DNA from: Thermosipho melanesiensis BI429
GTDB taxonomy: Bacteria; Thermotogota; Thermotogae; Thermotogales; Fervidobacteriaceae
Direction: 5' to 3'
Assembly (NCBI RefSeq): GCF_000016905.1
Contig: NC_009616.1
Span: 434,001 to 498,000, forward strand
DNA: 64,000 nucleotides
Part shown: positions 25,010 to 44,230 of the stretch, piece by piece
How the letters are laid out: the number at the start of each line of letters is the position of its first letter
How positions within the stretch are numbered: the first letter of the stretch is position 1
Translations under genes and position numbers: made by a program
Notes under the pieces: generated by a model
The model's input: the letters and a program-made list of their open reading frames with translations, nothing else
Databases searched by the model: none
What the model was told of the DNA's origin: nothing

Positions 25010-25504
25010 ATGAGGTATTTGTTATTAATATTTTTGATATTGTCGGTATCTGTGTTTCCATTTTTCTTAGGAGTAGAAGGATTAACCTTGCCACAAATTG
25101 ATTTTCCAGAGTATCCTGCCCCACAAATAGAATTGTTCGCAAGAATGGATCTTGGTTTGTTGTACTTTATGCTTCCTTTTGGTACTTACAACGAAGATGG
25201 AAGTGTATTTATTGTTAATAATATCGATGCAGAGTACATAAAAAGATTCCTAGGAGTTGGACTTCAACTTACACCAAATTTTTCAAAAAATTTCTATATG
25301 AGACTTTCAACAGATATGCCCATAATCGAAGCAATTTCAATAAGACAATTTAACGTCTTGGATTTAAAAGTAGGTTTAGGTTTAAAATTTGCAATCTTTA
25401 AATTTGAAGCAGGAGCTGTAGGAAGGATGAAAAAACTAACCGACGGTTCACTTGGTATGAAATTTGGTGAAATTTTCTATTTTGCAGGTGGATTTTCATT
25501 TTAA
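25010..25504 (+). CDS. Exported hypothetical protein, 164 aa
   Basis: Not recognised. Residues 1-17 are a signal peptide (MRYLLLIFLILSVSVFP). The rest alternates in a beta-rich way: FARMDLGLLYFMLPFGTY, FLGVGLQLTPNFSKNFYMRLS, FNVLDLKVGLGLKFAIFKFEAGAV, ending in the aromatic GEIFYFAGGFSF, as in small outer-membrane beta-barrels. Own promoter and terminator. Likely an envelope protein of the toga. Confidence 0.7.
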   Translation: MRYLLLIFLILSVSVFPFFLGVEGLTLPQIDFPEYPAPQIELFARMDLGLLYFMLPFGTYNEDGSVFIVNNIDAEYIKRFLGVGLQLTPNFSKNFYMRLSTDMPIIEAISIRQFNVLDLKVGLGLKFAIFKFEAGAVGRMKKLTDGSLGMKFGEIFYFAGGFSF

Positions 25505-29946: not shown

Positions 29947-31629
29947 TTGAAGAAAGGTTCAATAAGTATTATTTTGATTTCACTGCTAGTTGTATTTTCG
30001 ATTTTTTCAATATCTATATTTTCAATCTTAAAAAATACTCATGATGTGTTTTCTAACAATTTTAAAAAATTGCAAGCGGAAAAAATTGCAAACAATCTTT
30101 TAGAATTTTCCATTGCTACAGTAAAAATGGGAATAGACGCCATGAGTAATTTAAGAGATGATGTATTTTCATTTTCGGATACATCCAGTGATGTAAAAAG
30201 TATAAAAAACGTTAATTGGACATCACAAACAAAGAAATTTATAAATAAATATGTTGATACATCAAAGGCAACTATTATTTTTTCAACCAATGGATATTCT
30301 TTAGATTTTGAAAAGCTCTCTTTGATGGACTTAAAGAAAAGTTTCGAAGATTATTTAAGTAATTTTTCTGAAGGAATTAACACCTTTTCCGCTATCTACA
30401 AAATTAAAAAAGGCGGAAAATATCTAGTTTACGCAAAGGTAAAAATTGATAACATTTCATATGCAAAAATCGCAATAATAACATCCGAGAAATTAAACAA
30501 ATACGTTTATTATTCAGAAGAAGAACCTAAATTTTATTTTACAAGCAACGAAGTTATTTATGGACCATTAAAAAGTAATGCAGTAATACATACTTGGCAA
30601 TATGCTGGAAATAATAAAAAGTTTACCGTTATGGGAACACTAGAGGTTCCGGGAATAAGACATTATGATGAAGAAAGCAGAAAACACATAAATTACAACG
30701 CGAATAATAACCCTAATGAAGTTTACAATGTATTTAATTTAAAGGGTAATCCTCCAATAAAATTTGTTAATTCAGATGTGAGATTTTCAGAAATATATAA
30801 TGATTATTCAACAGCTGTTTCTTCACTTTGTATGCCAATTGAGGAAATTATAGACACAAACTTTGGTGAGGTAGGAATAGCACTTTCAAAAGATACAAAA
30901 ATTGAATCTAATATAGAAAATGGAGAAAATATCTTGTATATAGATACTTCAGATAAAATGTATATCATATCTTGGAAAATAGGCAAATTACCTGATGCAC
31001 GTATACAATATAAGAAAAACAACATATGGAAACAAAAACATATAAAATTCAATGGTGTAATTTCTTCCGAAAAAAATATAATATTAACCAACTCTAACGA
31101 TTTACAAAACAGACGATTTCTGTATGACGGAAATTTAACTATTTTTTCAAAAGAAAATATATACATAGATGCAAGAATTATACCTTACAAAACGTTTTCA
31201 AAATTTTCCACCACAGAAAAAGATGAAATATCTTTAGATGAACTGGAAAACATAAAAGAGTTTGTTTTGGAGAAAGAAACATCTTCACTAGACTTAGTAT
31301 CAGAAAGAGATATAATTATAAAATCATCAACACATAATTCCAGAATAAATAACCACAAAATATTTGCCAATATATACTCGTTTGATGGCTCCTTTAAAGT
31401 AGAAAATTATAATTTAGGGAATAACAACGGACAGTTGTTTGTTTTTGGAAGTATTATGCAAAAAGCTAGGGGGGTAGTGGGAATTGTGGGTAATAACCAA
31501 CCTGGATATTACAAATTCTATGTGCACGATTCTAGAGCATTATTTGGAAGAATAGGTACAATTGCAACTCCCGCGAAAAAGAAAAGTATAATGATACTTT
31601 ATCTGGAAAATGCTTTCGAAAGGGGATAG
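29947..31629 (+). CDS. Pilin-pathway-associated protein, 560 aa (PilX-like N-terminus)
   Basis: A 560-residue protein with a short basic N-terminus and one hydrophobic helix (SISIILISLLVVFSIFSISIF), then a long extracytoplasmic region with no recognisable family. The N-terminal form MKKGSISIIL resembles the PilX/GspK-like minor pilin class, which has 'MKRQ/KxGxA' starts before a hydrophobic helix, but there is no conserved Glu five residues after the putative cleavage Gly. The region from about 200 on is beta-rich, with several NNKKFTVMGTLEVPG-like strands and asparagine-rich turns. Start is TTG with ATAGGAG upstream. First gene of a three-gene set ending at 32481. Confidence 0.65.
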   Translation: MKKGSISIILISLLVVFSIFSISIFSILKNTHDVFSNNFKKLQAEKIANNLLEFSIATVKMGIDAMSNLRDDVFSFSDTSSDVKSIKNVNWTSQTKKFINKYVDTSKATIIFSTNGYSLDFEKLSLMDLKKSFEDYLSNFSEGINTFSAIYKIKKGGKYLVYAKVKIDNISYAKIAIITSEKLNKYVYYSEEEPKFYFTSNEVIYGPLKSNAVIHTWQYAGNNKKFTVMGTLEVPGIRHYDEESRKHINYNANNNPNEVYNVFNLKGNPPIKFVNSDVRFSEIYNDYSTAVSSLCMPIEEIIDTNFGEVGIALSKDTKIESNIENGENILYIDTSDKMYIISWKIGKLPDARIQYKKNNIWKQKHIKFNGVISSEKNIILTNSNDLQNRRFLYDGNLTIFSKENIYIDARIIPYKTFSKFSTTEKDEISLDELENIKEFVLEKETSSLDLVSERDIIIKSSTHNSRINNHKIFANIYSFDGSFKVENYNLGNNNGQLFVFGSIMQKARGVVGIVGNNQPGYYKFYVHDSRALFGRIGTIATPAKKKSIMILYLENAFERG

Positions 31630-31640
31630 GGGGGATTTTT

Positions 31641-32027
31641 TTGAAGAAAGGTTTTAGTCTTACTGAAACTCTTGTTGCCATATTACTCATTTCTTTGATT
31701 TCTGTAAGCGTATTTTCTTTGGTAACTTTTTCTACCTTTCAAAACAATAAAATAAAATATGAAAATATGTATAATGATTTAAAAAAAATTGCATTTAATG
31801 AAATCATAATTCGAGGTGTAAAAGATGAGGGAATTGAAAATCTCGTAGATTATATAAACCAAAAGTTTTATGGAGGTAAAAACATAAGTTATCCAAAGAT
31901 CTCAGAAATAAAAATAGAAAAAACTTTTGAAGATTCAGGCATCCCAATAGCACGGATTATTAAAGTAAAAGTATTAAAAAATAAAAAAACAAGTGAAGAA
32001 TTTTTTGTATTTCAAGGGAGGCCATAA
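31641..32027 (+). CDS. Type IV prepilin-like protein
   Basis: A 128-residue protein with a canonical prepilin N-terminus: KKG followed by FSLTE and a hydrophobic helix (TLVAILLISLISVSVFSLVTF). The Gly before Phe is the PilD cleavage site and Glu at mature position 5 is present. The remainder is short and charged, as in minor pilins. Start is TTG behind GGGGG, 11 bp after the preceding gene. No pilus motor genes are in the window, so assembly must use machinery encoded elsewhere. Confidence 0.8.
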   Translation: MKKGFSLTETLVAILLISLISVSVFSLVTFSTFQNNKIKYENMYNDLKKIAFNEIIIRGVKDEGIENLVDYINQKFYGGKNISYPKISEIKIEKTFEDSGIPIARIIKVKVLKNKKTSEEFFVFQGRP

Positions 32028-32028
32028 A

Positions 32029-32481
32029 ATGGGATTTAATCTAAGTGGTATACTAACCTTTTTAACAATTTTTGTCATTATATTCGCAACAATATTATCA
32101 CTTTTCACTTTACTAACAAAAAGTCTAGAGATTACATTTAGGAATTGTAGCTTGGAACAATGTGTTTTGTTATCATCAAATGCTTTGCAAAAATTTTTTG
32201 AAAATGCAAATTTATCCAATGGAATAAATGTTTCTGATAAAGAAATATCGTTTTTAGTTTCTGCTCCCGATGGAAAAGCAAAAGAATATAAATTTTTAGT
32301 TATTGAAAATGTAAATGAAACATTAGTAAGGTTATATTTAGGTGAAAAATACTACAATATAGTATCAATTCCTAACGTAATTTCAATACAATTTGATATT
32401 AGAGAAAATTTACCGATAGTAAAGTTTTTATTTAATAACAAAGAAAGAGAATTTATCCTAACTTCAAATATATCAACCTAA
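32029..32481 (+). CDS. Minor pilin-like membrane protein lacking Glu5
   Basis: A 150-residue protein, MGFNLSGILTFLTIFVIIFATILSL at the N-terminus and a soluble domain of about 115 residues with FLVSAPDGKAKEYKFLVIEN and similar strands. The leader MG then FNLSG looks like a one- or two-residue prepilin leader, but Glu5 is Gly. Absence of Glu5 is known for the tip-type GspK/XcpX pseudopilin. ATG 32029 is chosen over the in-frame 31993 because GGGAGG lies 8 nt upstream. Last gene of the set, ahead of a terminator. Confidence 0.65.
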   Translation: MGFNLSGILTFLTIFVIIFATILSLFTLLTKSLEITFRNCSLEQCVLLSSNALQKFFENANLSNGINVSDKEISFLVSAPDGKAKEYKFLVIENVNETLVRLYLGEKYYNIVSIPNVISIQFDIRENLPIVKFLFNNKEREFILTSNIST

Positions 32482-33308: not shown

Positions 33309-36300
33309 TCACCTCCCAGAAATTTTTTTAAGAAAATTCAATATATCCTCTTTTGTGGTTAAAGGTGTTCCTTCATCTAAAAGAACGTTTCCCCAATCCT
33401 TAATAACGTTTTCCCACATATTATCTGTCATTTCTGAGTATGTGTTAATTAACTTCTCTGCGTTAAATTTTAAATCATTTTCTATTAATTTGTAATGTGC
33501 TATGAATCTTGCATAAGATTCATAAATACTTGCATAACTTGGTATATTAATTAATCCTTGTATTTCATTCTTAATATTGATTATTATCTGAGTGTGTACA
33601 CCCATTTTTTGTAAGTTAGAAAGGAAATTGTTTAAATGTTTTACCATTATCATGCTCCAAATACTATTCTTTGATACATTGTACCAGTCTTGAGGTTTTT
33701 GTGAAATGAGTTTTTTCATGTAATCTGCTTCAACTGCAATATAGTTGTATCTTTTAAACTCCTCATTTGCCTTATCAACTGCTTCTTCAAAATTCCTAAC
33801 TATTACTTTTCGTCCACTACTTGGAATTTCACTTAAAACATTTTCAATATTCTTTGAATATTTTTCTTTTAAAGCTCCAATTTGATTATCAAGTGCTTCT
33901 TTATACTTTAAAATCCTCTCACTTGAAATTAAGAAAGACTCTTTGTACATGTGGTGAAGTTTTTCTAAAATATATATTGCTTCCTGTATGGCTCCAGTTT
34001 TATAATACTCAAATGAAGTGGCATGCAAGAAATCTATCACTCCATTTGGAACTCCCCAGACATTTTTCAAGTTCATGTATTTAGCCGCTTTTATTTCCAT
34101 TTTTGCAAGCCATTCTGTAAACTCGTAAACGGGTTTTAGTATTGGAGGTTGTAGTTTGAACGTCATACTGGCAAAAAATCTATAAATATCCTCACCACGT
34201 GTTGCTTTTGAAATATCTGGATTTTTCCAATCGGAAAATCTATTCCAACCACCTGGCATGTTGGTTAATGTTTTCTTTGCATACTCAACATATTTATCAA
34301 ACGCTATTACAACTAACTTTTTGATTTTTTCCTTATATTGTTCTTCATCTATGTAATTTAATAATTCCTTTAACAAAACATGTAGCGAATGAAATCTCAT
34401 GGCTATTGCTTTGTAGGTATTTCTCTCGTTAAAGCAAAGAAGTGAAGTTTCGTATATACCAATAGAATCTATAACAGCTTGTGCTGTTGCAAAATCAAAC
34501 TTGTCTAAAATTTCACTGCGATCTTTTATGTATGGTACAAGCACACTTAACCATTTAGTTTTATTATGAATTATTTTTTGAAATTCATCAAAATCCTGGT
34601 TAAATATTTTTTCATAATGTTCTTTTATGTTGTTTTTTAGAATATTAATCCTAAAATCTTGCACCGCTAATGTTGCAAGATAAAAGTATGATTTTCCATA
34701 TGTATGGTTAATAGTAACACTCCTTAGCAAGTTCTTTTTGGCTTTTATATAGTAATCTTTTGCCAATGATGGAAGTTGCGATCTTTGCTTTTTTATCTGT
34801 TCAATTTGTGACAAAAGCTGATTTTTTATTTTGTTTATTTGTGCAATCCTTTGATTTTCTATTTCAAACTCATTGTATGGCAAATTCTTGCTTTTGTATT
34901 CTTCAATCTTTTGCCTTTTCCATACATCTTTGTTAAGATAATAAAATTCACTTTGTTGTTTATTCAAATCTTTAAGTTTTTCTTCAAGTTGTGATATATA
35001 ATCTGCCGCTTTTGGATATTCTTCCATTATCTTTGCAAAGGTTAAATAAGCTGCATTTCCTTCTTTGAAATAGACTTCTGAAATAAAGTGATTCCATCTT
35101 AAATAAGTTGATGCATATGTTACTGTTAAAATGAATAACATTAATAAAATTGCTTTTGTATTCTTTATTTCTTTTAAAGGTTTTTTTGTAAAATACGGTC
35201 CTATAGCTATACCAACAAAAACAATTGCCGCAAGGGCATTTGGAAGAAGATGTCCCGGAAAGCTGAAAAAGCTTTGTATGGAAAAACCGACTATTGAAAT
35301 AGAAAGTGATAAGAAAAGTAACAAATCATCTCTGTTTTCAATTTTCTTTGGAATGGTAAAAAAGTAATACACAAGAAAAGCTAAAAGGAGTATTATAAGG
35401 GAAAGACCAACGATTCCCGTTTCACCAAGTACTTGGAAATAATCGTTGTGTGCTCTTTTAAAATTGTTCCAACCGTAGTATAATTCTGGGTGCTTTTCAA
35501 GGTATTCTCCCATCTTTGTAAGTGATAAAAGTTGGTACGTCCCTATTCCCGTTCCAAATATTTTGTGATCTTCCCATAACTCCAGCGACGTAAACCAAGA
35601 AAGGAATCTTTCATCTCTACTTGAAACTGAGGCCATAGCAGAAAATCTATTAGTCATATTTACCTTACCTTGTCCAGTCAAAGGATTTTCCGTATTGTAT
35701 ATTAAAACTATAAATACTGAAACAATTAACAAAACTATTAAAAGTAAGTTTGTCAATTTTTTTATCTGTGGTATTGGAGAAGACTTCTTTCTCCAAACAA
35801 AGTAGAAAATGACATACATAACACTCATGACAATTATTGCAAGATACTCAGACCTTGTCTGTGAAACTATAACAGCCATTAATCCCAAGATAAAACTTAC
35901 CAGCGAAGATAACTTTATCAAACTAACTTGCCAAAATTTTTTTACTCCTAAATCATATGCAAGTAAAAAGTAAAGCGCAATTGGGAGAAGCATATCAATG
36001 TAGTTTGCAACAAAGATGACATTTCCCACACTTGCTTTTATTGAACCTCTAGAAAGTGGTTGGCCTACTTTACCAAGAAAAATATCATACCCTATATAAA
36101 AATTTAAGAGAGCATCTATTGAAATAAATAACCCTGTCAACATAAATGTGAAAAGAAGAATATTTATTCTCTTTTTCTCATTATATTCACTACTTATGTA
36201 AAAAGCAACAAGTACGTTAAACAAAACATAAAGACCTATATCAAACGATTGTCTAAAATAAAATGGGTTATCCCTAAGTGTGTTAAAGCTTGAAATTATG

Positions 36301-36521
36301 GAAGAAATTGCAAAGAAAAACCAAATTATATGAGCAGGTGATATATAGATACTTATCTTTTTTTCTTTTATTACTTTTGCCGCAAGATATGTAAATAAAA
36401 CCGAGAAAGCAAAGGTTAATATAGCATACTTTGGTACACTAAATTCATACGTTAATTTTGGACTCGCAAATAGTGCAACTAGCACAATTGTAATATTAAG
36501 AAATATATCTTTAAAGTACAA
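33309..36521 (-). CDS. O-antigen ligase/polymerase-like membrane protein, 1070 aa
   Basis: The N-terminal 470 residues have about 12 hydrophobic helices and the Wzy_C/O-antigen ligase motif: RFLSWFTSLELWEDHKIFGTGIGTYQ near 310, then RAHNDYFQVLGETGIVGLSLII near 365, with the conserved His-Asn-Asp. The remaining 600 residues are soluble, helical and rich in Lys, Glu and Tyr, with long charged helices (QIEQIKKQRSQLP, KEKIKKLVVIAFDKYVEYAKK); TPR-like repeats are possible but not regular. O-antigen ligases join glycans to lipid carriers or proteins; bacterial protein glycosylases of the PglL type share the motif. The tail is unusually long. Its partner is the lipoprotein downstream; it could be the acceptor, which is only a guess. 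Confidence 0.75.
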   Translation of the reverse strand: MYFKDIFLNITIVLVALFASPKLTYEFSVPKYAILTFAFSVLFTYLAAKVIKEKKISIYISPAHIIWFFFAISSIISSFNTLRDNPFYFRQSFDIGLYVLFNVLVAFYISSEYNEKKRINILLFTFMLTGLFISIDALLNFYIGYDIFLGKVGQPLSRGSIKASVGNVIFVANYIDMLLPIALYFLLAYDLGVKKFWQVSLIKLSSLVSFILGLMAVIVSQTRSEYLAIIVMSVMYVIFYFVWRKKSSPIPQIKKLTNLLLIVLLIVSVFIVLIYNTENPLTGQGKVNMTNRFSAMASVSSRDERFLSWFTSLELWEDHKIFGTGIGTYQLLSLTKMGEYLEKHPELYYGWNNFKRAHNDYFQVLGETGIVGLSLIILLLAFLVYYFFTIPKKIENRDDLLLFLSLSISIVGFSIQSFFSFPGHLLPNALAAIVFVGIAIGPYFTKKPLKEIKNTKAILLMLFILTVTYASTYLRWNHFISEVYFKEGNAAYLTFAKIMEEYPKAADYISQLEEKLKDLNKQQSEFYYLNKDVWKRQKIEEYKSKNLPYNEFEIENQRIAQINKIKNQLLSQIEQIKKQRSQLPSLAKDYYIKAKKNLLRSVTINHTYGKSYFYLATLAVQDFRINILKNNIKEHYEKIFNQDFDEFQKIIHNKTKWLSVLVPYIKDRSEILDKFDFATAQAVIDSIGIYETSLLCFNERNTYKAIAMRFHSLHVLLKELLNYIDEEQYKEKIKKLVVIAFDKYVEYAKKTLTNMPGGWNRFSDWKNPDISKATRGEDIYRFFASMTFKLQPPILKPVYEFTEWLAKMEIKAAKYMNLKNVWGVPNGVIDFLHATSFEYYKTGAIQEAIYILEKLHHMYKESFLISSERILKYKEALDNQIGALKEKYSKNIENVLSEIPSSGRKVIVRNFEEAVDKANEEFKRYNYIAVEADYMKKLISQKPQDWYNVSKNSIWSMIMVKHLNNFLSNLQKMGVHTQIIINIKNEIQGLINIPSYASIYESYARFIAHYKLIENDLKFNAEKLINTYSEMTDNMWENVIKDWGNVLLDEGTPLTTKEDILNFLKKISGR

Positions 36522-36601: not shown

Positions 36602-37798
36602 ATGAAAAAACTTATCTTAATTTTATTACTTCCGACTATTTTATTTTCAAAACCTTTGATAGTAATAAATGTACATACATCAGATTACTCAAATCTTATA
36701 TACGCAAGTGCATATGGAACTTTAGGTAAAAAAAGATTTGAGATTTTGCTCGAAGATGCTCTAAAAAAACTAGGACTTGAGATGAAGCTTCAAGATCTAT
36801 TCTCCTCTAAAAACGAAGTACTAAATAAAAAAACTGAAAAACCGCTGGAGCTGAATATATATGTTGAAGATTTAACAATAGATATCTTAAAAGAAAAAAA
36901 TAACTACATTGAAAATAACGCATCTGGTGAATATATAAAGGTATATGATAAATATATAAAGGTTTACGTGGGAAAATGGTTTGACAAAAACGGACAATTA
37001 ACAAAAGATGGTTTATACGTTAAAGGAGTTGACGGTAACTTTTACTATCCTTCCACCTTTTATACAAAATTTAGTCATACAATTGAATACTATACAATCA
37101 AAGGACACATTAGGTACGTATTTAAAGGTAAAGAAGAAACTATTTTACTAGATAGTAATCTAAAGAAAAAGTGGTACAAATGGAATGAAGCTGTAAAAAG
37201 CCCAATAAGTATGGAAAAAAGTTTTAACTACGTTATTGATTATCTTGCAAAAAAAATCGGGAATGATCTGCTTGAAAATTTGAATTACAAGACAAAAGCT
37301 AAAATCGCAAATATGAATGATAATAGAGTTATCTTAAACGTTGGAAAAGATGACGGAATAAATACTAACACTGCATTTGAAATAGATGAAAATGCACAGA
37401 TAATTGTAAAAAACGTTGAAAAAAATTTCTCAGAAGGGGAAATTTTATACTTGAAAAAGGGCACACAACTTCATGTTGGTGATGAATTGGTTGAGGGAAA
37501 AAGAAAAATTTCTATTCCAATATCCTTAGGCCTTTATTACTCAACACAAGGTGCATATTTTTCAATAGAATTAGTACAGAAGAATATTCATCATGAAAAA
37601 GTGGCATTTTTTGCTTTGGAATTTTCAGATAAACAAAGTTATAGCCTTGGAGTTAGAGTATTAAATTTTGAAGATTTAGATTTATTTTTTACATACAATC
37701 CAGGTTATTTAGGATTTTTTGTTAAGTACAAGCTTTTTGATTTGCTTTTTAAATTTAATGGAACAGATTTCGTTCTTGGTGGTGGTATTTCATGGTAA
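36602..37798 (+). CDS. Exported CsgG-related protein, 398 aa (cluster gene 1)
   Basis: No family could be named with certainty. It has a signal peptide (MKKLILILLLPTILFS), a region laid out like CsgG (PLIVINVHTSDYSN strand, then FEILLEDALKKLGLEM helix), an inserted Tyr-rich block at about 107-160 (GEYIKVYDKYIKVYVGKWF, later GLYVKGVDGNFYYPSTFYTK), a helix SMEKSFNYVIDYLAKKIG, then a segment of form 'RVILNVGKDDGINTNTAFEI' near 245 like the FlgT C-terminal domain, and a final beta-rich 100 residues ending in aromatic GGGISW. The same order occurs in the next two genes. It overlaps the next gene's ATG by 7 nt. A secreted or outer-envelope part of a CsgG/FlgT-like assembly is likely. Confidence 0.65.
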   Translation: MKKLILILLLPTILFSKPLIVINVHTSDYSNLIYASAYGTLGKKRFEILLEDALKKLGLEMKLQDLFSSKNEVLNKKTEKPLELNIYVEDLTIDILKEKNNYIENNASGEYIKVYDKYIKVYVGKWFDKNGQLTKDGLYVKGVDGNFYYPSTFYTKFSHTIEYYTIKGHIRYVFKGKEETILLDSNLKKKWYKWNEAVKSPISMEKSFNYVIDYLAKKIGNDLLENLNYKTKAKIANMNDNRVILNVGKDDGINTNTAFEIDENAQIIVKNVEKNFSEGEILYLKKGTQLHVGDELVEGKRKISIPISLGLYYSTQGAYFSIELVQKNIHHEKVAFFALEFSDKQSYSLGVRVLNFEDLDLFFTYNPGYLGFFVKYKLFDLLFKFNGTDFVLGGGISW

Positions 37799-39558
37799 AA
37801 AAGATAACTATCTTTCTTCTTTTACTTTCCTCACTTTCTCCTTCAAAAGTGCTTGTACATTCGAAATACAATTTAAAGATAGATACTAATGCATTTGAAA
37901 GCGAAAATTTTGTGGTAATTTCAATACTTTCTGTGGAAAAAGAATCTCTTTCAAGAGAAGTAATCAGCTATATAAAAAATGAAAATGGAAACTATATAAG
38001 ATACAATGGTAATTTCTACTACACCTCAGATAATAATAAATACAGGCTAGTTGGTGAAAAATTTGTAAAGGATGAAAATGGGCCATATGTTTATGCATCA
38101 GAATTTTTCTGGGCAAGAAATGAAAAACAAAGATATATCTTAAGCGATTTCTACAAAAAAATAGTAACAAAAGAAAAATTGGAAAGATTTGTTATTTCAG
38201 GTTATTTAATTGAAATAGATAGCAGTAATTTTTACATTCTCTCATTTACTCCATTTGTATTTTATGTTAGAGATTTTAACGAAGTAGAAAAGAAGATATT
38301 AACAATACAAAAAAATGAAAATCATTTTAGCGTGGATAAATATGACATTGTAGTAAATTTTATCAATACCCCTTCAAAACTTAAGTCATTCATTCTTTCA
38401 AAACTCCAAGAAGATGATAGATACAATATATACGATAGAGAATATTTAGAAGAACTGCTAAAAGACATTTCTCTAAAAGATGCTTTGAAAGGTATAAATA
38501 TTAAATTTAGAACCCCAAATTATGTAATCAATATCGACACTGTAGAATTTTTAAACGATAAATTCCAAAAAGATTACATGATATTTTTAAAAAATGATAT
38601 GAATGGGCAATTTTTAATTACAGGTGAGAAAGTAGAAGTGGGAAGATTCTATCAAAAAGAAAATGATGCGTATATTTTAGACAAAGAAAAAGGGAAATAT
38701 GTAAAGGTCTTAAACTATCCATGGAGAAAAGAGCGTTTTAAATACGCAAGTGAATTTTACGATATCTCTTTAAAAAAAGGAGAGGGGTACACAAATTATT
38801 ATCTAACGATTCTTTTAAATGTTATTGATGTTGAAAGTGCAAAAATTGTTTATTCTAATATTTTGGATAAAAATATAGAATTTCCACAATTCTCCTACTC
38901 TCTGCACGGAACCTTTCAAAATAGTGAAATTGAAAAGTTAAATAATCTATTTTTAAGTTTATCAGAAGATGTAAAAGAAAAATTAAGAAAAGTTTTCTAT
39001 TTAACAAGTGTAGTCAAAGATGTAGATGGTTTAAACGTTTTTCTTTATGATGGTAAAAATATCGGCATAAAAGAAGGACAAATCTTCAGGATTTTTGATA
39101 ATCATTTTACACAAGGATATTTAAAAGTAAAAAGTGTTGAATGGAATGAATCAAGTGGTAACGTATTCTATTTGATTGGTGAAATTAATAAATTTAACCT
39201 TGCCAGCGAGTCTTTTCATTATCCATCAAGAATTGGTATCTCTTTTACTTTGAATAACCTCCTCGAATTAGGTGCTAAAATAAAATTTCTAGATCTGTAT
39301 GGATTTGAGAATTTTTCTTTTTTATTTGGCATAACATACAAAGAACTTTATGTAGGCTTTTCAAAAAGATTTAGCTTTATTGACACTTCTTTAAAAGTGT
39401 ATTATAACAGTTTAACAGATAACATGTCATTTGATATTGGTATTTTTCTAACGTCTTTTTCTAGAATTTCTCTTTTTAATTCCTCTGGCAACGGAATATT
39501 TATAGGCTACAATTTAACAAAACAAAAAATCTCCTTTGGATATGAACTTGGACTATAA
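37792..39558 (+). CDS. Exported CsgG-related protein with duplicated Tyr-rich block, 588 aa (cluster gene 2)
   Basis: Signal peptide MVKKITIFLLLLSSLSPS, then two copies of the Tyr-rich block seen once in the gene before: copy one at about 64-115 (GNYIRYNGNFYYTSDNNKYRL, later GPYVYASEFFWA) and copy two at about 270-325 (DAYILDKEKGKYVKV, later FKYASEFYDI). Between them lies a CsgG-like helix and strand (SFILSKLQEDDRYNIYDREY, EFLNDKFQKDYMIFL). A FlgT-C-like segment GLNVFLYDGKNIGIKEGQIFRI is near 415, and the last 110 residues are beta-rich with aromatic alternation (FENFSFLFGITYKELYVGFS). Its start overlaps the preceding stop and its end is 35 bp from the CsgG gene. Function unknown; probably an envelope component acting with its neighbours. 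Confidence 0.65.
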   Translation: MVKKITIFLLLLSSLSPSKVLVHSKYNLKIDTNAFESENFVVISILSVEKESLSREVISYIKNENGNYIRYNGNFYYTSDNNKYRLVGEKFVKDENGPYVYASEFFWARNEKQRYILSDFYKKIVTKEKLERFVISGYLIEIDSSNFYILSFTPFVFYVRDFNEVEKKILTIQKNENHFSVDKYDIVVNFINTPSKLKSFILSKLQEDDRYNIYDREYLEELLKDISLKDALKGINIKFRTPNYVINIDTVEFLNDKFQKDYMIFLKNDMNGQFLITGEKVEVGRFYQKENDAYILDKEKGKYVKVLNYPWRKERFKYASEFYDISLKKGEGYTNYYLTILLNVIDVESAKIVYSNILDKNIEFPQFSYSLHGTFQNSEIEKLNNLFLSLSEDVKEKLRKVFYLTSVVKDVDGLNVFLYDGKNIGIKEGQIFRIFDNHFTQGYLKVKSVEWNESSGNVFYLIGEINKFNLASESFHYPSRIGISFTLNNLLELGAKIKFLDLYGFENFSFLFGITYKELYVGFSKRFSFIDTSLKVYYNSLTDNMSFDIGIFLTSFSRISLFNSSGNGIFIGYNLTKQKISFGYELGL

Positions 39559-39563
39559 AATCA

Positions 39564-39572
39564 TGATATAAT
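39564..39572 (+). promoter_or_regulatory. Extended -10 promoter before CsgG-family gene
   Basis: TGATATAAT, 22 bp before the ATG at 39594, so the last two genes of the cluster may also be transcribed on their own. Confidence 0.5.
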
Positions 39573-39593
39573 TTTTTGCAGGGAGGTGGGATT

Positions 39594-40778
39594 ATGAAAA
39601 AGTTAATACTTGTTCTTTTGGTTTTGGTAAGTATTTCATTTGCAATTACAGTTAGCGAAAAAACGGGGATAGTTATTTTACCTGCAAAGGTTGGTAATGG
39701 ATGGAATATGGATGAAGCAGATTATTTGATTTCACTGCTTGAAGAAAAGGCATTATCACTTGGAAGGTTTAGAGTATATTCAAGAAACGATCTAGATGCT
39801 ATTGTAAAAGAAAGAAATTTATCTGAACTCGGTATTGTTGAAAAAACTTTTGAAGCTGGAAAAATTCTTGGCGCAAAGTATGCAATATTACTTACTCTAA
39901 CTGAATTAACATCTCAATATGAAGATAATGGATACACAGCAAGCTTAAGGTTATCGTTGAAATTGTATGATTTAAGTAGTGGTGAGCTGCTTGCCGCAAA
40001 AACATTTGATGATAGCACATACGTCGAAGAAGAAACCGCCCAAAAAGCTATAAATAGTCTTTTAGAGTTGGTTTCGGAAAAAATTTGGCTTACCTTAAGA
40101 GAATTTTTCAAAGTGGAAGCTTATGTAAAAAGTGTTGAAGATGGAAAGGTATATCTCGCTGGATTAGAGCCAAATATTGTAAAGAAAGGATTTATATTCA
40201 AAATTGAAACTTCCGATGGTGATGTTGCTTATGTAGAAGTAATTGGAATTGACAGAAAAGAAAATCTTGTAGTCACAAAATTCAAATACGGTGGAACTCC
40301 AGAGGTTTTTGATCCAGCTATAGAATATCCCATATCTGGAACGTACGGAGGATTTTCAATTGGAATGTACTCTGGAAAAATATCAATTGGAATCTCTGGA
40401 TTCCAAAATAATTTGTTTGTAGATGCTGGTATTATTCTTGCATCTGAAATGGGTTATGTTCCATGGTATACAACTGTTGGTGGTCTTTTAAAGTTTGCTG
40501 AGATGGGACAAATAAGCCTCTCTGGTTTTGGTGGCCTTCAACTACTTGGCATTTACAACACCAACAGTGATAGTAATGATTCGTTTTTAAATGTTTTTGG
40601 TATAAACGCAGGAGTGCAAATAAAGTATGAATTTGAACCAAAAAATGGAATTTTTATCAATGCAGGATACACCATGTTATTTCTAGGAGATGTTGTCCAA
40701 AATATTTACAATATCTTGTTTGGTATTGACAATACATCTTTTGTACAATTTAACATTGGCTACTTTATGGCATTTTAG
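39594..40778 (+). CDS. CsgG-family protein, 394 aa (cluster gene 3)
   Basis: The clearest CsgG relative in the cluster. After a signal peptide (MKKLILVLLVLVSISFA) come the family elements: TGIVILPAKVGNGWN, the helix EADYLISLLEEKALSLGRFRV, SRNDLDAIVKERNLSELGIV, LGAKYAILLTLTELTSQY, and LSLKLYDLSSGELLAAKTFDDS with AQKAINSLLELVSEKIW. A FlgT-C-like segment follows (DGKVYLAGLEPNIVKKGFIFKI, near 200) and the final 130 residues are glycine- and aromatic-rich beta strands ending in FNIGYFMAF. In curli producers CsgG is a secretion pore; there is no lipobox here, so it is a relative rather than CsgG itself. ATG 39594 is chosen over 39576 because GGGAGGTGGG precedes it. Confidence 0.8.
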   Translation: MKKLILVLLVLVSISFAITVSEKTGIVILPAKVGNGWNMDEADYLISLLEEKALSLGRFRVYSRNDLDAIVKERNLSELGIVEKTFEAGKILGAKYAILLTLTELTSQYEDNGYTASLRLSLKLYDLSSGELLAAKTFDDSTYVEEETAQKAINSLLELVSEKIWLTLREFFKVEAYVKSVEDGKVYLAGLEPNIVKKGFIFKIETSDGDVAYVEVIGIDRKENLVVTKFKYGGTPEVFDPAIEYPISGTYGGFSIGMYSGKISIGISGFQNNLFVDAGIILASEMGYVPWYTTVGGLLKFAEMGQISLSGFGGLQLLGIYNTNSDSNDSFLNVFGINAGVQIKYEFEPKNGIFINAGYTMLFLGDVVQNIYNILFGIDNTSFVQFNIGYFMAF

Positions 40779-40789
40779 GGGGATGTGAA

Positions 40790-42820
40790 ATGAAAAAAAT
40801 TTACATATTTTTGATAGTAATAATATTCATTTTATTTTCCTGTGATAATTCTCAAAACACCACAAATTCAACATCAAATACTTCTACTAATTTTGTTATA
40901 CCTTACGGCTTTATTGGCGCTTTTGGTGAAGGATATGCAGAATCTGAAGGCCTTTCCGAAGAAATTGCAAGGAAAGAAGCATTAAAAAAAATATCCGAAC
41001 AAATTTTTGTAGAAGTAAAAAGTGATACTACATTGTATGAAACTCTCAATCAAGTTACAAAAGATGAAAAAATAAAAGAAGAGGTTGAAACAAAACTTGA
41101 AAGTGTAGTGAAAACAACTACAAATATAGAGCTTGTAAACGTAGATTTTACTTTGGTTGATAAAAAATATAAAAATGGAAAATACTACACAAAGGTTTTG
41201 GGATTGATAGATAAAGAAACTGCATTAAATACATACAAAGTATATTTTGCAGTAAAGCTTGGCCAAGTATTGCTGAAAGATAAAATGATTTTTAGTGCTC
41301 AAAAACTGGTGGAAGAATACTCGGAGCTCTTAGAAAAAAAGAGGGAAAAGCTACCAGCAAATATGTTTTCAGAGCTCTCGAAAATTGTTTCAAATATAAA
41401 ACTTGAGTGGAGAAAAGTAAATAATATATACAATCAACTTTCTGAAAAAAACGTTTCAAATATAGTTGAGGCACTAAAACTCCTTGAAAGTATAGATAGA
41501 ATAAAGGATATTGCAAGAGATTTTCCAAATGAAAAGCTGGTAACTTTACAAAACAAAGCAAAACCATTTATTAAAGACATAAATATAAAAATAGAGGGAC
41601 CTAACAAAGTTTCTGTTGGAATGAGAATAGACTTAATTGTAAAACTAACACCAAAAGTTGACAGTATAGTTTTAAAGGTAAACTCTAAAAACGCTAATTT
41701 TCCAAATAGTATATCCCTAAAAGACGGTGAAGGGCAAATAAGCGGTATTGTAAAAGATACAGAAATGGAAGTAGAATTTTCTTTGGGAGGATTACTATCC
41801 AAAAAATTTGTTCCTGGTACAGTACAAGAAAGTGGAATTTCATCTCAAGATATAGGTAAAATTATTAGAATTGCAGTAGAAGGAGTAGATATTGACAGGA
41901 ACAAAGCAATTGAAAAAGGATTAACTTTAGCAGTAAAAAAAGCAGTGGGAATTTTATTCTCAGAAGACGTAAACCTTCTTTTGAGTTTACCTGTAGATAG
42001 CGAATTAATAGATGCTTTAATGGGAGTCCTCCAATACGAAATTGTGAATGAAGCACTAAAAAATGGTTCTTATCACCTAGTTATGAATGTAAGTTTCAAA
42101 AAAGAAGAATTTAAAAAACTACTTAAAGAAGTTATTGAAAACAAACCTACAGGATACGCCGTTTTAGTTGTAAATAACGATGAATATGGTTACATTGAAC
42201 CATATTTTGAAGAAAAATTGATAAATTTGGGTATAAATTTAGTTTCTAAAGAATATTCAAAAAAACTAGTTGGATATAACAATCCAAGTGTTTTATCAAA
42301 ACTCGCACTGCTTTCCGCAGCAAAGTATGTAATAAACGTAAAGGTTTCTTATGGTGAAAAATATTTACAAGATTACGATCTTTGGTCCGTAAGAATACTT
42401 TTGTCCGTGCAGTTAATAGACACCTTTACTGGAAAGATATTAAAAAGCTTAACGTTTGAAGAAACAAGAGCTGGTGCTACAAAACAATCTGCGCTTTCCA
42501 AAGTGTTAAACAGTGATAAATTTAATATATTCATCGAAAATTTAGTTGGAATGTTAAAAAGTAATGAAGGTAAAATAAATGAAAAAATAAGTTTGGTATT
42601 TAAGGTATCAAGATCAACATTTGTACTAGTTTTAAAAGATTATTTAAAGGAGATTTTTGAAAGTGTTACATTGATTAGAAAAACAGATAATGAAGGTTTT
42701 TTTATAATTCAAACAGATAAAAGCATTGATAATGTAATTGATAAAATATTAATGTTTAAAAATTTAGAGATAAACGTTTTACAAGTTAAAAACAATGAAG
42801 TAATATTTGAAGTAAAATAA
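40790..42820 (+). CDS. LPP20-type lipoprotein, 676 aa (cluster gene 4)
   Basis: Signal with lipobox MKKIYIFLIVIIFILFSC, cysteine 18, then a Thr/Ser/Asn linker. An LPP20-like domain spans about 38-150: GFIGAFGEGYAESEGLSEEIARKEALKKISEQI, then YYTKVLGLIDKETALNTY. A helical stretch (160-265) and a Big-like beta segment (IEGPNKVSVGMRIDLIVKL) follow. From about 350 a second block (DIGKIIRIAVEGVDIDRNKA, LTLAVKKAVGILFSEDV) looks like a degenerate second LPP20/FlgT-N domain, then VNVKVSYGEKYLQD-type CsgG-like strands (SVQLIDTFTGKILKSLTFEE). LPP20 proteins include the flagellar outer-ring protein FlgP. It follows the CsgG gene by 11 bp and ends in a strong terminator. Confidence 0.75.
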   Translation: MKKIYIFLIVIIFILFSCDNSQNTTNSTSNTSTNFVIPYGFIGAFGEGYAESEGLSEEIARKEALKKISEQIFVEVKSDTTLYETLNQVTKDEKIKEEVETKLESVVKTTTNIELVNVDFTLVDKKYKNGKYYTKVLGLIDKETALNTYKVYFAVKLGQVLLKDKMIFSAQKLVEEYSELLEKKREKLPANMFSELSKIVSNIKLEWRKVNNIYNQLSEKNVSNIVEALKLLESIDRIKDIARDFPNEKLVTLQNKAKPFIKDINIKIEGPNKVSVGMRIDLIVKLTPKVDSIVLKVNSKNANFPNSISLKDGEGQISGIVKDTEMEVEFSLGGLLSKKFVPGTVQESGISSQDIGKIIRIAVEGVDIDRNKAIEKGLTLAVKKAVGILFSEDVNLLLSLPVDSELIDALMGVLQYEIVNEALKNGSYHLVMNVSFKKEEFKKLLKEVIENKPTGYAVLVVNNDEYGYIEPYFEEKLINLGINLVSKEYSKKLVGYNNPSVLSKLALLSAAKYVINVKVSYGEKYLQDYDLWSVRILLSVQLIDTFTGKILKSLTFEETRAGATKQSALSKVLNSDKFNIFIENLVGMLKSNEGKINEKISLVFKVSRSTFVLVLKDYLKEIFESVTLIRKTDNEGFFIIQTDKSIDNVIDKILMFKNLEINVLQVKNNEVIFEVK

Positions 42821-42843
42821 CCCCCCAGTCGGGGGGTTATTTT
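42815..42843. terminator. Bidirectional terminator
   Basis: Stem AATAACCCCCC / GGGGGGTTATT with an AGTC loop between the LPP20 gene and the convergent decayed chemoreceptor. Confidence 0.9.
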
Positions 42844-44230
42844 ATAGGTTTTTTAGCTCTTGCGACTTTTCTGAAATTTCTTCTATTATTTTTTCTATTT
42901 CCTCTTGGCTCTTTTTTAAATCTTTGAACTTTTCAAATAAATCCTTTGCAATATTTTCAATTTCAACTTTTAAATTATTTGAAATATTATTTTGTTCTTT
43001 GTTCATTTCAACTATTTGTTTGAAACTTTCAAACATACTTGTCATTTCGCTAGTACTTTGATTTATTGAATTTAAAGTTTCGTTATTCTTTACTATTGCC
43101 ATAGATAATTTCTCAGAAAGCTCATATACAAAATTATTTACCTGCTCAAAATCCTTTTCTATTACCGAAACAGTTGAGTTTATATTATCCACTAACATTG
43201 TTGTATCCTGTGATAGTTTCCTAATTTCATCTGCAACAACTGCAAAGCTTTTCCTAGCCTCTCCTGCTCTTGCAGCCTCAATTGCTGCATTCAAAGATAA
43301 CAAGTTTGTTTGTGTAGCAATATCTTGAATCTTTGAGGTTATACTTTTTATATTCTCCACATTTTTCGAAAAATCTTCAAAGGCTTTTAAAAGATTATCC
43401 TTAACATTAATTAGATTTTCTGACAGTGTAATAACTTGTGAAAAATTTTCCAAATTATTTTTTGATGAACTCTCTATTCCTTCTCCCATTTGGCTAACGA
43501 AAGATATCTTTTCCGTTATTTCTTCTGTTTTTAATTGCACATTTAACAAAAACGAGTCAAATAAATCGAGTACATTTAAGAGATTGGATATTTTTTCATC
43601 TACTTCTTCTGTCTCTACAGCTAATTTTGATTAATTGCGTTTACAGCCTCAGTTGCGTTAAATACAACTTTTGAAAATTCCTTTGCACTTTCTGACCAAT
43701 TTGTAAGTTTTTTTATGTTCTCCTTTTCTTGCTTAAGAAGCTCGTTTACTTTTTTTACTTGTCTCAATAGTTTTTCTGTTTATTTCTATTATGTTTGTAA
43801 AAGCGTAAATACCAAGTGTAAGTCCAAATCCCGTTTGCGCTATGTTAAAAAACATGTAATCTATGTTTACCATGTTCAAAACAGAAAGAATCGACAAAAA
43901 TATACCTGCTACAACCGCTCCAAGACCCATTGTAACAAATCTTTCTGAAAGAACTTTTGAGTTTTTTATAAATAGATATGAAATATATATAAGTGACAAT
44001 ATCGCAAAAAGATAAAATTGTGAGTAATTTGTACGGACCGTTGTCAAATTTTTTGATAAAAGTACTCTTAAAAAGAACAACCAATACATAACTATATATA
44101 CCTTGAAAAATAAATGCCTTTTTAATTTAAATATCTCATGTGAAAATTCTAACGCAAAATACTTAGACAATGCCACACCTGAAATTACTATTTTTTTCCA
44201 AAACAATATAGGATGCAAAAATAAATTCAT
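42842..44230 (-). pseudogene. Methyl-accepting chemotaxis protein, frameshifted
   Basis: A chemoreceptor split by two single-base shifts. The N-terminal piece (44230 to about 43735) has several hydrophobic helices (VYIVMYWLFFLRVLL, FYLFAILSLIYISYLFI, MGLGAVVAGIFLSILSVLNM). It runs out of frame at a run of seven A near 43757; dropping one A continues as VNELLKQEKENIKKLTNWSE to a stop near 43630, where adding one A to an A4 run continues to the C-terminal piece (from 43549) with the signalling domain [20 protein letters not shown]. The invariant hairpin tip is altered as well (EARKSFAVV instead of EAGKGFAVV), which supports real decay rather than sequencing error. It overlaps the small membrane protein gene upstream by ATGA. 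Confidence 0.8.

Follow-up and report, generated by a model that had tools for sequence, protein, structure and literature searches.

Genes and features of the locus

Four co-directional ORFs, designated genes A to D, were identified in the window, the 64,000-nucleotide stretch of Thermosipho melanesiensis BI429 DNA analysed here, where the first-pass annotation had placed a four-gene envelope cluster. Genes A and B overlap by 7 bp, spacers of 35 and 11 bp separate B from C and C from D, and a strong intrinsic terminator closes the operon. The most likely start of gene C is 39594, an ATG after AGGGAGGTGGG, rather than 39576. The genes and the terminator are as follows.

36602..37798, + strand: gene A, 398 aa; signal peptide, CsgG-like core with a Tyr/Gly-rich insert, FlgT-C-like segment and an outer-membrane beta-barrel-like C-terminus ending ..VLGGGISW
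37792..39558, + strand: gene B, 588 aa; duplicated core/insert unit, FlgT-C-like segment and an outer-membrane barrel-like C-terminal region
39594..40778, + strand: gene C, 394 aa; signal peptide, CsgG/FlgT-M-like core, FlgT-C-like domain and a predicted 8-stranded outer-membrane beta-barrel
40790..42820, + strand: gene D, 676 aa; lipoprotein with the order LPP20, helical, Ig-like, LPP20/FlgT_N-like, CsgG-like core and C-terminal alpha/beta domain
42812..42845, + strand: strong intrinsic terminator at the end of the operon after D

In a Pfam search of the window proteins, C matched CsgG above the cut-off (7.2e-6), B matched it below the threshold (0.009), and A gave no match. No annotation beyond a CsgG or LPP20 domain was obtained for the four proteins in the libraries searched, and a literature search on FlgT and CsgG in Thermotogae and on LPP20 with CsgG returned no description of the cluster.

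Convergent with D, and sharing a bidirectional terminator with it, lies a gene for a 235-aa protein that contains an MCP signalling domain but lacks an obvious membrane segment (42842–43549, − strand); an MCP-like gene is also located upstream of A-B in another genome (G055, locus L110). A 1070-aa Wzy_C/O-antigen-ligase-like protein is encoded divergently from gene A (33309–36521, − strand). Three genes in a row at 29947–32481 (+ strand), at least one of which has a prepilin-like N-terminus (MKKGFSLTETLVAILLISLI), are kept beside the locus in genome G078. The 164-aa protein encoded at 25010–25504 (+ strand) has the C-terminus IFYFAGGFSF and is possibly another outer-membrane barrel.

Domain architecture of the four proteins

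The domains were delimited as listed below, all on the + strand.

36899..37066, +: A, Tyr/Gly-rich beta insert of about 55 residues within the CsgG-like core (residues ~100–155; boundaries approximate)
37283..37507, +: A, FlgT-C-like segment (residues ~228–302), from profile alignment and weak FlgT_C Pfam matches in 2 of 14 A-family members (E 0.016)
37508..37795, +: A, C-terminal beta-barrel-like region (residues 303–398); terminal W or F in 14/14 homologues
37900..38271, +: B, N-terminal first copy of the core/insert unit, from hhalign self-comparison
38332..38991, +: B, second CsgG-like core with insert (residues ~181–400)
38992..39225, +: B, FlgT-C-like segment (residues ~401–478), from alignment with C
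39226..39555, +: B, C-terminal barrel-like region; 12 of 13 homologues end in F, the window protein in L
40335..40775, +: C, OmpA/OprF/NspA-like domain predicted as an 8-stranded barrel (residues 248–394) from the model and fold matches; 11 of 12 homologues end in F
40913..41224, +: D, first LPP20 domain (residues ~42–145), Pfam E 8.7e-7
41852..42145, +: D, second LPP20/FlgT_N-like domain (residues ~355–452), from FlgT_N Pfam matches in homologues and model secondary structure
42146..42565, +: D, CsgG/LpoB/FlgT-M-like core (residues ~453–592), from hhalign, the model and fold matches

Genes A, B and C share a common ancestry. Comparison of the orthologue families by hhalign gave 99.8% (E 1e-29) for A and B across the full length of A, 97.6% (E 5e-12) for B and C, and 96% (E 1.5e-9) for A and C. 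Since the three are mutually homologous, their common order of CsgG-like core, FlgT-C-like segment and beta-rich C-terminus, which had been proposed from the ORF translations, is not a matter of chance. CsgG was matched in Pfam by all 12 C-family members. The xVxLxxGKxxGIxxGxxFxI-type pattern, proposed earlier as the mark of the FlgT-C-like segment in all three proteins, was recovered in A (residues ~241–262) and B (~413–433) and was weaker in C (~184–205).

All three proteins have ordinary signal peptides and no lipobox. The cores of both A and B contain a Tyr/Gly-rich insert of about 55 residues, and alignment to C puts this insert after the strand where CsgG places its first membrane hairpin. 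Self-comparison of B by hhalign demonstrated a duplicated N-terminal unit, with residues 37–205 corresponding to 242–402. A 749-aa variant of the C family was observed in Fervidobacterium sp. UBA8200 (locus L116, 67–2316), in which the barrel is replaced by an apparent fibronectin-III-like domain and repeated propeller-like units.

The C-terminal regions of all three proteins end in a BAM-type signal. Phe or Trp is the last residue in 37 of the 39 homologues of A, B and C, and Thermotogales porins likewise end in F (PMC3387000). The beta-signal motif ....G..[hydrophobic].[FWYL] was found in exactly A, B and C among the 55 window genes, and period-2 amphipathicity peaks in the C-terminal region of each family, at a modest level (mean z 1.5–1.9). 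The C-terminal region of A is short (96 aa). The C-termini of A and B are probably outer-membrane barrels, as judged from the terminal signal and the amphipathicity.

Protein C was modelled from four sequences (pLDDT 77). The model consists of a CsgG-like core (residues 22–172), a small beta domain (173–247) and eight further strands. With eight amphipathic strands and a terminal aromatic residue, the last domain has the characteristics of an OmpA-type barrel, and on the model it is an 8-stranded outer-membrane barrel. The eighth strand was drawn at 367–380, with residues 383–394 at low confidence; much of the stretch before the terminal strand is missing from the Fervidobacterium orthologues, so the conserved terminal strand is more likely to be strand 8. 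In a Foldseek search of the PDB, the top match of the model was Vibrio FlgT (3w1e; 283 columns, E 2.9e-9), followed by the LPHT ring (8z5n), and further matches included GNA1162, PelC, OprF, CsgG, OmpA and NspA. Whole-chain TM-scores between C and FlgT were low (about 0.3), indicating that the individual domains and their sequence along the chain are matched, but not the protein as one rigid body. Sequence searches of the PDB with profiles of C, D, B and the FlgT-like family described below returned no significant structure, and the link to FlgT therefore comes entirely from fold comparison.

The earlier description of gene D as an LPP20-type lipoprotein was borne out by an LPP20 score of 29.7 bits (curated Pfam cut-off, 25.9) and by the lipobox LFSC with Cys18. 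The residue at +2 is Asp, which is found in four of five lipoprotein orthologues. In Enterobacteria, Asp at this position favours the retention of lipoproteins in the inner membrane. The Fervidobacterium orthologue of D has an N-terminal membrane helix. We infer that D may be located in the inner membrane in Thermosipho.

Among 14 homologues of D, Pfam matched LPP20 in 10 and FlgT_N in four (best 5e-6); the latter matches, together with the modelled secondary structure at 358–451, confirmed a second LPP20 copy that had been suspected. The CsgG-like core at 453–592 was absent from the first-pass annotation. The model of D is of low confidence (pLDDT 56, from a two-sequence alignment), but its order of elements fits LPP20, helices, Ig-like domain, LPP20, CsgG-like core and alpha/beta domain. 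The top PDB fold match of this low-confidence model was again FlgT (3w1e; 401 columns, E 1.4e-8), and the LPHT ring, GNA1162, HpaA, CsgG and LpoB were also matched. The models of C and D thus match FlgT and CsgG in fold, in line with the first-pass annotation.

Gene D is a fusion of two genes. In family f3 and in genome G100, its halves are encoded by separate genes with a vWA+LPP20 gene in between (FlgT-like protein, 457–490 aa; vWA protein, about 674 aa; protein with TM anchor, LPP20, Ig and TPR, about 654 aa), and the C-terminal half of D matched the FlgT-like family in profile comparison (98.9%, E 1e-17). Two Thermosipho species encode, immediately after D, a 353-aa lipoprotein akin to the vWA+LPP20 protein (L096, 5557–6618; L097, 13285–14346); it is absent from the window.

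Distribution in Thermotogota and flagellar neighbourhoods

The distribution of the genes was surveyed in 103 Thermotogota genomes. The four-gene order occurred only in Thermosipho (g1), where it was found with tight spacing in all four species, and the cluster is thus conserved beyond a single strain. The A-B pair was present in g1, Fervidobacterium, g10, g35 and g36, and C and D were present in g1, g5, most Fervidobacterium, g3, several f3 genera, g17 and g37. Family f10 has A-B without C-D, and g5 has C-D without A-B. A-B and C-D are therefore two separable modules that are joined in Thermosipho. Genes for two inner membrane–anchored LPP20-like proteins of about 220 aa flank C and D in four Fervidobacterium-type genomes, and in genome G003 a C homologue overlaps an FlgT-like gene. 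A scan of genome contigs with the C alignment identified three loci, all from Thermotogota, and a scan with D gave no match.

C- and D-type genes lie near flagellar genes in several relatives. In all three genomes of the related genus g14, the operon flgB-flgC-fliE-rodA-SDH protease-C ends with C, and its gaps are 7 bp or less. In G097 and G099, homologues of D (FlgT-like, vWA and LPP20-Ig genes) are found 2–3.5 kb from fliP; in G088 the FlgT-like cluster is within about 3 kb of the flagellin gene, following flagellin and a glycosyltransferase gene. The description of the cluster as stand-alone accordingly does not hold, as its modules are separate elsewhere and have flagellar neighbours there. 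The glycosyltransferase of G088 is a family 2 protein with TPRs (L168, 689–3358) and is possibly involved in flagellin glycosylation.

These neighbourhoods are not universal. In Thermosipho and Fervidobacterium the genes are outside the flagellar operons, the Thermosipho cluster being 15 kb from flgF/flgG and 25 kb from fliF, and A-B had flagellar neighbours in none of the genomes seen. Co-occurrence with flagella had been suggested for examination in the first-pass annotation. FlgH was present in all 26 genomes carrying any of A-D, and none of the 23 FlgH-negative genomes carried any of them. The association is significant by genome (Fisher, 7e-4) but not at the genus level (p 0.11). Genus g4, a flagella-less member of the same family as the host, lacks all four genes. 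Most flagellate Thermotogota genera also lack A-D, which indicates that flagella do not depend on these genes. The idea that the cluster takes the place of the L-ring protein FlgH was rejected because FlgH is present in all cluster genomes. Two Thermosipho relatives have an intact cluster but an interrupted fliF, with an in-frame stop in G080 (L166, 8320–9933) and an apparent frameshift in G085 (L165, 7355–8972); the interruptions could reflect flagellar decay or sequencing error, and their occurrence beside an intact cluster counts against a flagellar role.

Comparison with known systems and possible roles

FlgT of Vibrio (3w1e; H ring/LPHT ring, 8z5n) is the best PDB fold match of both C and D, the model of D being of low confidence. 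A FlgT-C-like domain is found in A-C, and a FlgT_N-like domain and a middle-domain-like core are found in D; the genomic proximity of C- and D-type genes to flagellar genes in some relatives is a further likeness. However, no single chain of A-D contains FlgT_N, FlgT_M and FlgT_C together, A-C are extended by a membrane barrel (a probable one in A and B) and D by LPP20, helical and Ig-like parts, and flagella in Thermotogota do not require A-D. The curli secretion channel CsgG has the alpha/beta core domain in common with C, which Pfam placed above its cut-off, but each CsgG subunit contributes two membrane hairpins to a 36-stranded barrel and is held by a lipoprotein anchor, whereas C lacks the hairpin, A-C lack a lipobox, and C would be anchored by its separate C-terminal barrel. 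D resembles the LPP20/FlgP lipoproteins of the basal disk in its LPP20 domain and, in Thermosipho, its lipoprotein signal; it differs in its much larger size, two LPP20-like copies, additional domains and, in Fervidobacterium, a TM anchor instead of lipid. The periplasmic outer-membrane lipoproteins PelC, LpoB and GNA1162 have the same core fold as C and D but are single-domain proteins, while the cores of C and D are embedded in multidomain proteins with a barrel or inner-membrane anchor. The C-terminal domain of C resembles the small barrels of OmpA, OprF and NspA, including the terminal-F beta-signal, although in OmpA and OprF the barrel is N-terminal to a peptidoglycan-binding domain and in C it is C-terminal to ring-type domains.

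The location of C- and D-type genes beside flagellar genes in relatives suggests that the cluster may form a flagellar ring. We tentatively propose that A-D constitute an envelope-spanning scaffold of the FlgT/CsgG type, most likely a collar or ring accessory to the flagellum at its passage through the toga; the proposal, which falls somewhat short of an even chance, builds on the computed domain anatomy, barrel signal, two-module history and flagellar neighbourhoods in other genera. A, B and C would be anchored in the outer membrane through their own small C-terminal beta-barrels and would display the CsgG/FlgT-M-like core and the FlgT-C-like domain in the periplasm. D would extend from the inner membrane, with lipid as its anchor in Thermosipho and a transmembrane helix in Fervidobacterium, and would contribute LPP20/FlgT_N and CsgG-like domains to meet A-C, presumably making contact with C. 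Such proteins could assemble into a ring working like that of FlgT/FlgP in the Vibrio H/T ring, with barrels in place of lipids as anchors. FlgP and FlgT have an SHS2-like fold in common, and ring formation in that family accompanies an insertion (PMC12222027). The flagellar function of the cluster is a lead of moderate strength. A further-reaching version seems rather doubtful: in it, Thermotogota lineages would possess a flagellar outer collar, an accessory ring outside Proteobacteria, in which FlgT/CsgG-type proteins with their own outer-membrane barrels are connected to FlgT/LPP20 proteins of the inner membrane, with the paralogous A-B added in Thermosipho.

The H/T rings, the basal disk and other accessory rings of flagella have been described mainly from Proteobacteria. 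If the proposal is correct, barrels fused to ring domains would represent an alternative means of anchoring such rings in the outer membrane, early-branching Thermotogota would possess a FlgT-like set with candidate proteins linking inner membrane, periplasm and toga, and proteins annotated no further than CsgG or LPP20 would gain a testable role.

The same domains could instead serve independently of flagella as an envelope tether or a regulator of peptidoglycan synthesis, in which outer membrane–anchored CsgG/LpoB-like domains reach the inner membrane–anchored D and the wall synthases. LpoB is among the Pfam and fold matches, C follows shortly behind rodA in one operon in g14, and the chain of domains would suit a bridge from inner to outer membrane. 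On the other hand, FlgT ranks above LpoB in the fold searches of both C and D, and no SLH or peptidoglycan-binding domain was found in the cluster proteins. Thermotogota without flagella also have a toga, but they lack these genes. We consider this reading, in which the proteins would hold the toga or activate PBPs, unlikely.

Export of a polysaccharide or adhesin was also considered, with A and B (and C) as an outer-membrane ring of the CsgG/PelC/HfaB type and D as a periplasmic adaptor. The fold matches of C include PelC and CsgG, and by hhalign the Tyr/Gly-rich insert of A and B is roughly at the site of the first CsgG hairpin. In C, however, core strands 96–110 and 113–126 are joined in the model by a two-residue turn, with no CsgG-type membrane hairpin, and the membrane part appears to be a barrel of OmpA size, too narrow on its own for passage. 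Secretion, one of the two roles suggested in the first-pass annotation, is for these reasons unlikely for C, whereas A and B might form a CsgG-type channel. The Wzy_C gene is divergent from A at 55–80 bp in Thermosipho and lies 1.5–2.6 kb from A-B in four Fervidobacterium genomes, but it occurs in 97 of the 103 genomes and is unlinked to A-B in several, and the linkage was therefore rejected as specific evidence for a role of A-B. No substrate gene is conserved beside A-B. Export by the cluster has, in our estimation, only about one chance in five. It is less probable still that A-B and C-D are functionally unrelated and stand side by side by chance in one genus: the modules are cleanly separated in Fervidobacterium and in other families (A-B only in f10, C-D only in g5), yet A, B and C are homologues of the same architecture, and the tight spacing of the four genes is kept in all four Thermosipho species.
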